From assembly GCA_002189035.1 (NCBI GenBank), contig NEEC01000016.1, positions 806,001 through 870,000 on the forward strand: a stretch of 64,000 bases of DNA. The letters are read 5' to 3'. This document shows positions 14,942-26,180 of the stretch, in pieces (positions within the stretch are counted from its first letter, which is position 1; each line of letters begins with the position of its first letter). This DNA comes from Utricularia gibba. Taxonomy: Eukaryota > Streptophyta > Magnoliopsida > Lamiales > Lentibulariaceae. The notes under the pieces are model-generated. The model had not been told where the DNA came from, ran no database searches, and was given only the letters and a program-made list of their open reading frames with translations. A program made the position numbers and the translations under genes.

Positions 14942-15699
14942 CTACTTTTTGTTGCTTTTGTTACTAACAGCATCACCAGCCCCAGCTGCTTTCCTTGCAG
15001 CCTTCTCTTGAAGTGCCTTGGCATCCCTAGTGAAATAGAAAAATCACAATTTGACAATGTATGCAGGAGATGAATACATGGAAAAACCAAAAGAGTCTCC
15101 ATGGTTGTTTGTTTTTTCTTACATCTATGACTTCAGGAATAAAAGACCATAACTTAAACCAAGCGATATATGGGCAACAGCATCAACAATAAAGTTAAGA
15201 GTCACTTGCACGCAACGAAGATCACCTAGAAAAGTTCAGGATAAAAAAATTCCTTTTCCATCAAAACATCCTCATCTTTGACAGCATCATGATACCCACA
15301 ATTTTAATCAACCATCATTCATTGTAGAAAGAACACACAAAACTCAACACAACTGCCAACAGATCATAAAAAAAATCACGAAATCGGAAGACAGAGCAGA
15401 ACTGAAATCCTAGATACTGAAGTCAAACAAACGGGATAAACAAGTAACCTTTCTCGGCGCTGCTCCGGAGTCAAGCCATCATCCTTGGTCTTCCCCTTTC
15501 CACCATTCCGAGCCTGAGCTCTTTCCCTGTCACGCTCCCTTTGATTTCCACGTTAAAAACAGTTAAGAAATCAACAAACAAAAAACTTCCATGGTCGCAG
15601 CAATCACAGTCACAGTCACACACACACATAAAAAAAAACTCGCTGCAAACGGAGAATCAGAAAAACCATATGAATCTGAAAAGAAAGGATATGAGTCAT
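14942..15699 (-). CDS. SERF/4F5 family small basic protein
   Basis: Three coding exons: 15693-15699, 15449-15551, 14942-15026. The spliced product is 64 residues: MTRGNQRERDRERAQARNGG, then a KGKTKDDGLTPEQRRER segment and DAKALQEKAARKAAGAGDAV. This is the highly conserved 4F5/SERF architecture (N-terminal MTRGNQR, middle LTPEQRRERDAKALQ, C-terminal Lys/Asn tail). Animal and yeast SERF/MOAG-4 proteins modulate amyloid aggregation and bind RNA; the plant role is not established. Exon 1 holds only ATGACTC. The frame joins to exon 2 only across an AT-AC intron, listed separately; no GT-AG alternative restores the conserved N-terminus. Intron 2 is an ordinary GT-AG intron. It is too short and too split for simple ORF calling, but the conservation makes it secure. 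Confidence 0.92.
15552..15692 (-). other. AT-AC U12-type intron in the SERF gene
   Basis: On the minus strand the intron begins ATATCCTTTC, a perfect U12 5' splice site of the AT-AC class. It ends TTTCTTAACTGTTTTTAAC. That contains a TTCTTAAC branch site close to the U12 consensus, with the branch A 11 to 12 bases from the terminal AC, which is the tight spacing typical of U12 introns. Length is 141 nt. Removing it joins ATGACTC to GTGGAAATC and restores MTRGNQR. No usable AG lies near the acceptor. Confidence 0.9.
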
Positions 15700-16454
15700 G
15701 GAGAAAACAATGCCCGCAAGCACCTTCGGAAGATTGAGCTGTTTATTCTGATTCCGATGGTCATAGAAGCTTCTGGATGGGGAGGGGGGGAATATTTGAC
15801 TTTTTTAAATAGAAATAAAAAAAAACAAAATAATTTAATATAGGGCCCCACACCTAATTTGCGGCTGTAATAAGGCTTTCCTCTGCAGCACAAATAAAAA
15901 ATTAAAATAATAAAATATAGGCCCAATTTTTATCACATTTAAAAAATACTAAATTCTTTATTGAATTTCCCATTCGTTTCCTTCTAGTCTTATAAAGAGC
16001 TTTTACTGAATTTTCAATTAAAAATTTAAGTTTAGCCAATATTTTAAAAAATAAAATCAGTTAACTCTTCAATTCAATTATCGTTAAGAACTAAATTACT
16101 TTTTTAATGGATTATATTGATTTACTAATTTTAAATATATATTTATTATCAAATATATAACATTAAAAATAATAATATTAACTAAATTTAAAATTTTTTT
16201 GAAAGAGTTAGGAGCCTTTTTGATAATATGCGCTGATGGATCGCCAGTATGAGTACGCCGGAGGATCTAGCGTACGCAGACGTCCTGCGCTAGAATGCGT
16301 ATGACGAGGCTTGTGAGAAATAATAAATGGTTCCTCACGTACGGCACCTAAGATCCATGCTCCTTTTATGGAAATAGAGATGCAAAAGAAAGGAGAATTG
16401 CTACATAATATGAAAAACCACGCACCCCGAGATTGTGCATCGATTTGGGGGAGC
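15700..16454. other. Intergenic: SERF promoter and RRM-gene 3' region
   Basis: Both flanking genes read leftward, so this contains the SERF leader and promoter on its left and the 3' end of the RRM gene on its right. From about 15800 to 16200 it is strongly AT-rich. No gene, RNA or repeat seen. Confidence 0.4.
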
Positions 16455-17327
16455 TCAAAACTGGCGGGTTGGTCCATTGAAGCTGCTGCGTGGAGCTCTT
16501 TCCTCGGCGAAGCTCACACGAATGTTCCTTCCATTGAGTTGCTGGGAGCAGACAATGAGACGGTTCAGCAAGCTCCAAAGAATGTAACAACACCAGGAAA
16601 CGAGGAGAGTTGAGGAGTTGTATTTAAGGTGTCACCTGTCCATCCATGGCGGAAACAGCTGAGGCTGCAGATTCATCACTTGAGAAATTCACAAATCCAA
16701 ATCCTCTTGATCTTCCAGAATCCCTGTCAGTAATTACCCTTGCTGCAAGAAATTTCACCACTGCTCATATCCCAAAACAAGCCAAGCAATAAGCAGCTCA
16801 ACTGTCTGCAGATTCAACTTCACACACCAAAATCAGCACCTTCATACTTCACCAACAAACATATGAATATTTAAACAGCTCGATCAACAATAGTTGACAT
16901 AGGGGGATTCCCCAATGTAGCAACCTCCACCCTCTTGGTCAACAACCCCCCAATGCAAATAAAAAGAAACAGCCCCAATGTCTCCAGATTCGGTTTCACC
17001 CAGTGTTTCATATCCACTCAACAAAGGAAAAGGAATTGTGCTGGTGACATTAAGAAATGGGTTGAATTACCATCAGCAACGTCACCGAAACAAGCAAAAG
17101 CATCTCTAAGAGACTGGTCATCAGTTCCATAAGATAGCCCTGCAGAATACAAGACCTCAACAATGGTGCTCGAAACACATTCATTATCCATGAGAATCAA
17201 ATTACGGAGACAAACCTCCAACAAACAGCTTTGTGGACATGCAGCGTAGGGTAAACATGGAAGATCCCTTCAGAGCGCAACCAATAGAAAGGCTCTGCTT
17301 CAACACATTCCCAAGTCCGTACACCAT
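16455..17327 (-). CDS. Small RRM RNA-binding protein, probably mitochondrial
   Basis: Four coding exons: 17216-17327, 17071-17139, 16636-16742, 16455-16541, giving 124 residues. An N-terminal basic, hydroxylated segment (MVYGLGNVLKQSLSIG, ending LRCMSTKLF) looks like an organelle presequence. A single RRM follows: RNP2 is KLFVGGLSYG and RNP1 is RSRGFGFVNF, with GRNIRVSFAEERAP at the C-terminus. This is the short organelle type of glycine-rich RNA-binding protein but without a glycine-rich tail. Relatives act in organelle RNA editing or processing; the exact role here is unknown. Upstream, a likely non-coding exon ends at 17614 and a 5' UTR intron spans 17329-17613, so the start codon lies one base into the second exon. 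RRM call is firm; targeting is inferred. Confidence 0.88.
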
Positions 17328-17902
17328 TCTGTAAGTATATGCAGGAAGAAAAAAGGTATTACAAGCCCAACCTCAAACTGACATATAGAAGTGGCATCAA
17401 CCAAACAAGAAACTCCAATAAATCACGAAAACAACACACAGGACGAAATGAAACATCAACAAAAACAGGAATCATCAGAGCAAACATAAAAAAAAATGCA
17501 ATACCCGTAACGTAATCTTTTTTCAAGATCAACACAAGTAAATCAGTCAGAAACAGGAACAGCGTTTCGAAACAAGGATCTCAAGATCTAGTAAAAGGAA
17601 TATCCCGAGGTACCTGCTCTTGCGAAAAAATGGAAAGCAGCTTTTCGCCGTAAGAGATCGCTAGGGTTTATGATTTTGAAACGTATGATCCCAACACTTG
17701 GAACATATATAGTGCACTAATATAATTTTCTATTTTAATTGTATTTATTATTTTTTAAAATAAAAGTATTTTGTCTAATACTTTTTATATAAATATTTAT
17801 TATATATAAAGAAAAAAGTATTTTAAAATATTTTAAATTTCATATTGCGTTGCTTCGTTCCCGTCTGAAAAAATGCACAACAAGCAGAAGGGCTCCAGAG
17901 AT
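17328..17902. promoter_or_regulatory. RRM-gene 5' UTR intron and promoter; synthetase 3' end
   Basis: On the minus strand a GCAG|GTACC donor at 17613 and an ACTTACAG acceptor ending at 17329 define a probable leader intron of 285 nt. Upstream of it (about 17640-17860) is an AT-rich promoter-like block. The acetyl-CoA synthetase stop codon follows at 17905-17903, so its 3' untranslated region probably overlaps this stretch. Confidence 0.5.
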
Positions 17903-23408: not shown

Positions 23409-26180
23409 CTACTCAAGGAAAACTTGAATTCTATCGCCCATGGAATCATTTAAATCCAACAACATCTTCCCTCCAACTTCATCCCTTTCACCATCAAGCA
23501 ATTCCTTAAGGTTTATCCCTCCCAATGCTGAACATGTGAAACAGCTTCTAAGCATAGCCAGAAAGAAACAAAGAAAAAAAATGCTGGTCAAATCTGCATA
23601 GGAGTAAACTACCTGGCACAATATTGGTTATTCCATCCAGGAAACCAGCCTGAAAGAATGGAAGAATCAAGGGAGAGAGTGAATGTACCAGAAAAGTGGG
23701 GAAAACATGCATAACTCGAGTTGATGGTAAATGACTGCTTACTGGTATCCTAACATCCAGTTTCTCAATGCCATCTCGTCCAGTTATTTTAACTCTCAGC
23801 CTTCGATTCCAAATCCCAGAAGGCCGGTAAGTGTTATCTCCATAGTATATCTCTGGAGTAACGACTTCCACAGCAGGGTCTTGCTCGCTTTGATTTCCTA
23901 TTTCTTGACTCTGTGCACTGTTTGAATATTTGCTGTCAGAGATGTAGCCTGAAATTGAGAGGAGAGTTTTACCAACAAAAGATACCATAGTATACCGAGG
24001 ACTTCAAAAAAAAAAAAAAAAAGTCAACTCTTGTAAATGATTAGTGTTTTCCAAATACAAAAAATTATTAGTTAAAGGGAAGAAGTCAGAAGAGACTTCA
24101 GAAAACAGCGTGCGTCGAATGTTTCCTAGAAGCTTCTTAATTAGTTACAAGTAGAATGGCTTGAGCTAAAACATAAATAAGTGTAGTGAGTCATAAACAG
24201 AATCTCATTCTACATTTGGATTATATCGAGAGCAAAAAATGACATTGTGCTCACACCAAGAAAAAAAGGAAATCAAGACAAAAAAACACAGGGAACCTTG
24301 GGCTGGTTGAAGCTGACTGGTCTTAGAAGCATAACGCTTCTCTTCTTCATAATAGGTATTAAAACCCAAGAGTTCTTTCATCTCTTCGAAGGAAAGCATG
24401 CTTCCAGGAGAGGGAAGGCGGCCTCCTTTAATTGCAACTAAAGCATCCTAGCAGACATGATTATGATATGATATTGCATGATAGCATATCTGCAAGATCT
24501 CATTGCTACTAATTTGTAACTGAATTGCAAAAACAACAGGAAACCTGCATTGCACGTATAGAGACACCCAATAAAGATAATGGATACGCCACTAGTTTAT
24601 ATCCAACTTCAGCGAGCTCCATGGGACTAAGTATAGGTGTTTTCCCTCCACCTTCAAGCATATTGGCCTGCTAAGACATGTCGTGTTATTCCAATGGCAG
24701 CAAAAACAAAAAGTTAGATTGTTATACAAACCACTTGTTCAAAGAGTGCGTCATCCAGCAAAATATTGATAGGCAATAAAAGCCAAACGAAGAGCCAAAA
24801 CAGCATGGCCATGGCATTCCATGGGCGAGTTTCGTTCTACATAATCAAGGTTTGGGACAATACTGAAATTAAAAGTAGCCATTACCATTTTGGGAACCAA
24901 GGGATACACTTCACAGAATTTTTTCATCTCTTCTTTTGAAGCGAGAGCATCAATGAATAGAACATCTGCCCCAGCATCAGCAAGAGAACGTGCTCTCCAA
25001 AGAGATTCTTCAAAGGAAATGGCCTGGCGTGAATCTGTTCGAGCTACTATGACAATATCAGAACCACTTTCCTTACGAGCATCAACAGCTGCTTTGATCT
25101 TCATTACCGCTTCTTCTCTAGACACAACTTTTCGCCCTTGAGTGTGACCGCACGCTTTAGGAGTGACCTTCAGAAGAGAACTGATAGGTGATTGAAAGGA
25201 ATTTCAGTATTCAAAATGATTTCAAAACCTTCAAACAAAAGAAACTTCTCTGACAAGGATTCTACGTGACAAAACAAAACATAAAGCATAAGCTAGATGA
25301 CATCAGCAAGTAGAGAAAATATCACCATATTCAGTATGTCCCACGAGGGGTGCTGATATTCTCAAGCATACAAGAAAAAGCATGAAATCCAAACATGCAG
25401 ACTCCAATTTCACATCGAAGTGACTAGAATCAAAGTGAGAGAAATGCATTGCTCCATGATACCTGATCCTCAAGAATTATTCCAGCAAATCCGGCATTAA
25501 TATATCCTCTAACAGTTCTCTTCACATTCATAGGATTGCCATATCCATTATCGCCGTCCCCAATTACAGGGATTGATACAGACCCAGTTACTTTTTGCCC
25601 TTGAGACACCGTCTCTCCATATGAAATAAGCCCAGTATCAGGCAACCCGAGCTGAGCAGCAGATATCCCAAATCCTACAAAAAAATGAAACTATGGATTC
25701 AGAAAACAACAAATGAATACTTCCTTATCCAACTTTTGATGAAAACGTAAATGATGAGCTTGATAGCTTGCATCATACAAAAATTGGCCCAAAATAGGAT
25801 ATCTAATCAGCAATGGTTTGTTAGCACTACATTGAAATGGGAATGCTCAAGTCATGGATGATACCAGTTGTGAAGCAGAAATCAAAACCAGCCTTTTCTA
25901 CGAGTTTGGCGCTTAAGGCGTCGAAACAAGCTGGACCCAGATGAATTCCAGGCGATTGAAGAAGTTTTCGAAGCGACGTTGCGGGAGAATCGACAGTACC
26001 ATCTCCACTGCTTGATCGAGCAGCGTACACTTTCCACAGGCTATCCAAGTGATGATGATCCGATTTTCTCAGCGCCCATTCAGGATACCCGTTCCCAAAC
26101 TTAATGTGTGCAGAACCAAATGAAGAAGGATACTGAGGATAAAAAGCGGTGCATGCAGACGGAACACAGAAATTCATCAT
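23409..26180 (-). CDS. ICL/PEP-mutase superfamily lyase-like protein
   Basis: Eight exons: 25865-26180, 25463-25674, 24886-25167, 24545-24667, 24297-24447, 23743-23948, 23613-23649, 23409-23527; all in frame, 481 residues. The first in-frame ATG is at 26180. After a Ser-rich N-terminus that may be an organelle presequence comes the TIM-barrel core: LGPACFDALSAKLVEKAGFD, PVIGDGDNGYGNPMNVKRT (metal site), GIILEDQ, TPKACGHTQGRKVV, IVARTDSRQ and ANMLEGGG. The KxCGH motif carries the cysteine used by isocitrate and methylisocitrate lyases. A C-terminal extension of about 110 residues ends GDRIQVFLE, as in one conserved plant subgroup. These proteins are often named carboxyvinyl-carboxyphosphonate phosphorylmutase-like, but the cysteine fits C-C lyase chemistry better. 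The substrate is not known. It is divergent to TOUGH, about 200 bp away. Confidence 0.9.

Follow-up and report, generated by a model that had tools for sequence, protein, structure and literature searches.

The interval 15552–15692 of the window, a 64,000-nucleotide stretch of the Utricularia gibba genome, is almost certainly the first intron of a minus-strand plant SERF (small EDRK-rich factor) gene, of the AT-AC U12 type and removed by the minor spliceosome. This reading draws on the splice signals, the reading frame, the family membership of the encoded protein, conservation in a paralogous gene and the presence of genomic loci for U11, U12 and U6atac. A sequence-only reading had already proposed an AT-AC U12 intron after a 7-nt coding exon; its coordinates proved exact, with donor, branch, terminal AC and paralog all in agreement, and the strand, which it did not give, is minus.

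Gene model and protein identity

The SERF gene comprises three coding exons on the minus strand, with a coding sequence of 195 nt that is in frame and specifies 64 residues. Coding exon 1 (15693–15699), with the 5′UTR upstream, is ATGACTC and encodes M, T and the first base of R. It is separated by intron 1 (15552–15692, 141 nt, phase 1) from coding exon 2 (15449–15551, 103 nt), which begins GTGGAAATC at 15551. An ordinary GT-AG intron 2 (15027–15448, 422 nt, GTTACTTG...CACTAG) and coding exon 3 with its TAG stop (14942–15026, 85 nt) complete the gene. Splicing of ATGACTC to GTGGAAATC would create codon 3 (Arg, with C from exon 1 and GT from exon 2) and with it the conserved start MTRGNQR. With both the AT-AC and the GT-AG intron joined, the predicted product is MTRGNQRERDRERAQARNGGKGKTKDDGLTPEQRRERDAKALQEKAARKAAGAGDAVSNKSNKK followed by the stop. 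The SERF gene is adjoined by a gene for an RRM-like protein (VITDRDSGRSRGFGFVNFSSDESAASAVSAMDGQ), which the open reading frame list places at 16624–17400 on the same minus strand.

The spliced protein matched the SERF-like_N family (PF04419) at 46.9 bits over residues 1–35, with the domain starting at residue 1 and a family cut-off of 22.3 bits. The exon 2 open reading frame without a start scored 39.7 bits and an alternative AT-AC reading 39.5 bits. Within a set of PDB sequences, human SERF1 (MARGNQRE) and SERF2 (MTRGNQRE) matched the protein in alignments that start at its residue 1, so both the assignment to SERF and the restoration of MTRGNQR by in-frame splicing, as the sequence-only reading had them, are upheld. 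The Utricularia and human proteins share the start M(T/A)RGNQRE, a small and charged composition and the N-terminal PF04419 domain, whereas the C-terminal part of the Utricularia protein has diverged. A search of a prokaryote contig collection for SERF relatives found none, as expected. In animals, SERF is a modifier of protein aggregation. AT3G24100 of Arabidopsis, a SERF gene that likewise encodes a small charged protein with an N-terminal PF04419 domain, has been investigated as the Bia peptide precursor in a text that does not deal with introns (PMC6460963).

Splice signals, machinery and chance expectation

Intron 1 has the 5′ end ATATCCTTTC and the 3′ end TTTCTTAACTGTTTTTAAC. Its U12-type donor (15683–15692, minus strand) carries C at +5 and matches the donor consensus ATATCCTT exactly at 15685–15692, while the terminal AC lies at 15552–15553 and an exhaustive enumeration of junctions found no usable AG acceptor. 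The U12-type branch motif TTTCTTAAC (15562–15570), identified by sequence match to the consensus, contains TTCTTAAC, one change from TCCTTAAC; here T replaces the first C of the consensus CCTTAAC, which counts against the assignment. There are two candidates for the branch A, at 11 and 12 nt from the 3′ end, just where they had been read from the sequence, and within the 10–15 nt before the acceptor that are usual for this class. An exact consensus donor, a near-consensus branch and standard spacing, judged against the published U12 consensus for donor and branch (PMC2426677), thus support a U12-type intron. The branch is predicted to pair with U12, although in this U-rich intron the pairing ranked only 10th of 133 windows by duplex energy; by such ranking, snRNA pairs form but the sites are not singled out.

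The genome encodes the corresponding minor-spliceosome RNAs. Rfam searches located U6atac (86.9 bits), U11 (74.2 bits) and U12 (86.2 bits), each at one locus and above the cut-off. Upstream of each of these three genes is the element RTCCCACATCG, the upstream element of plant snRNA genes, and the U12 gene contains GAGTAAGGA, the branch-recognition segment. The Rfam model of U4atac had no match in this genome and none in control genomes either, so its absence is not implied.

In the window, donor ATATCCTT, branch TYCTTRAC and a correctly spaced AC are found together a single time. Dinucleotide shuffles of the window gave a mean of 0.043 matches, with at least one match in 13 of 300 shuffles, and a 9-nt donor lowered this to a mean of 0.023 (6 of 300). 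A search of 100 Mb of the genome, with a donor-to-branch spacing of 60–121, returned 15 matches compared with 10 for the reversed control, hence the pattern by itself has little specificity on this scale and is weak evidence. The intron call gains its weight over chance from the two SERF genes of the genome, which both belong to these 15 matches and each have the junction at exactly the base that the conserved protein requires.

Other candidate introns were also seen. An AT-AC U12 candidate at G000:C451:2209227-2209344 on the plus strand (ATATCCTTCC...TCCTTGACTCGCCTTAC) has an open frame across the junction, and the gene in which it lies matches zf-Di19 at 6.6e-5, below the family cut-off. Another, of 93 nt, at G000:C412:2438114-2438206 on the minus strand (ATATCCTTTT...TTCCTTAACTTGAGTTTAC), also leaves the frame open across the junction (LRNFVLQGTTYAYAIVGDVFVLSLAQ joined to DANIRSGQIGLNVMQRRQAKVSP), with no Pfam match. 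Within the window, a weak U12-like candidate with GT-AC ends at 23745–23918 on the plus strand (GTATCCTAAC...TTTCTTGACTCTGTGCAC) is probably due to chance.

Paralog comparison and alternative readings

When the whole genome was searched with PF04419, a second SERF-type gene was detected, on contig C505. Here ATGACTC is followed by an intron of 90 nt (ATATCCTTTCC...TTTCTTGACTGATTTCAAC) inserted at the same base, and then by GAGGAAATC. The donor is again ATATCCTTTC, and the branch, TTCTTGAC, has the same spacing to the acceptor as in the 15552–15692 intron. The encoded protein, MTRGNQRERDRERAQARSGKGKTKDDGLTPEQRRERDAKALQEKAAKKAAGASDAVGNKNTKK, is intact with few amino-acid changes. Between the two copies, 19 of 20 signal bases, picked from the published consensus, are identical, compared with 43 of 70 in the rest of the intron, where 51 further bases are gapped. 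The difference is significant whether gaps are ignored (Fisher p = 0.005) or counted as mismatches (p = 4e-7), in a comparison that comprises one gene pair with few changes. Signals kept while the intron body diverged are the pattern expected if a working U12-type intron is under selection.

Could a canonical GT-AG intron and a start codon elsewhere account for the gene instead? When every ATG located between 15999 and exon 2 was tried with every join through a single intron, one GT-AG solution emerged, with ATG at 15764, an intron at 15539–15723 and a product beginning MTIGIRINSSIFRRERDRERAQ, which a gene finder restricted to GT-AG might pick. This join loses the conserved GNQ and, as the only canonical GT-AG reading, scores 30.0 rather than 46.9 bits against PF04419, and the aligned paralog has GC at its donor site and no ATG at its start site. 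More generally, GNQR is kept by no GT-AG or GC-AG intron, because an in-frame TAA (15553–15555) stands directly before exon 2 with no AG between. The other start or GT-AG junction that could have displaced the AT-AC reading was looked for and amounts to this one join, which we regard as very improbable. It is equally hard to credit that the locus is a pseudogene or non-coding remnant with incidental splice signals. Against such a reading, no break interrupts the frame in any of the three exons, the paralog is likewise intact and differs by few amino acids, and both copies hold the splice signals while the intron body diverges.

A different question is which spliceosome acts on the intron, since AT-AC introns of the U2 type do exist in sodium channel genes. 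Those introns are known with G at +5 (PMC2831892), whereas SERF intron 1 has C, and its donor is the full U12 consensus with a U12-type branch motif at the right distance. Removal by the major spliceosome is accordingly extremely unlikely, and excision of the U12-type AT-AC intron by the minor spliceosome in vivo is very likely.

SERF intron 1 is a new instance of an established class and an ordinary member of it in every respect. With other plant AT-AC U12-type introns it shares the donor ATATCCTT directly at the exon boundary, a TCCTTAAC-like branch 11–12 nt from the AC, phase 1 and a position near the 5′ end of the gene. There is no essential difference from them, beyond the single C-to-T change in the branch and an upstream coding exon of only 7 nt. 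U12 introns in general are concentrated towards the 5′ side of genes (PMC2426677), phase 0 is under-represented among them (PMC7367187), and in land plants they are stable (PMC10639083). The sequence-only reading described AT-AC introns as a small minority of U12 introns: they are indeed uncommon, but their rarity was slightly overstated, as their share among U12 introns is 26% in Arabidopsis, 23% in soybean, 22% in rice and 13% in maize (PMC7367187). Among the article texts searched, none was found to describe a U12 intron in SERF.

Consequences for SERF expression and annotation

At the very end of intron 1, the TAA at 15553–15555 (minus strand) lies in the frame of exon 2 and closes it if the intron is retained. 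Unspliced, the frame opened by the ATG at 15699 reaches a stop after 27 codons, so productive SERF expression should need U12-type splicing, and SERF output may be limited by the minor spliceosome. The peptides expected on retention, of 27 codons at this locus and 17 at the paralogous one, were compared by eye, with no sign that such a peptide is kept.

A broader idea, speculative and rather unlikely, is that the U12-type intron at SERF codon 3 is very old and common to plant, perhaps also animal, SERF genes, and that it also serves as a switch tying the SERF level to minor-spliceosome activity.

That non-canonical introns are missed by ab initio gene prediction, as the sequence-only reading warned, is already known (PMC5716242). 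In this genome, annotation limited to GT-AG introns would truncate or miss both SERF genes, and the gene model is corrected here for this locus and its paralog. The value of SERF intron 1 therefore lies mainly in correct gene annotation. It also offers a clean test case, in which the whole productive reading frame of one gene would hang on one minor intron.
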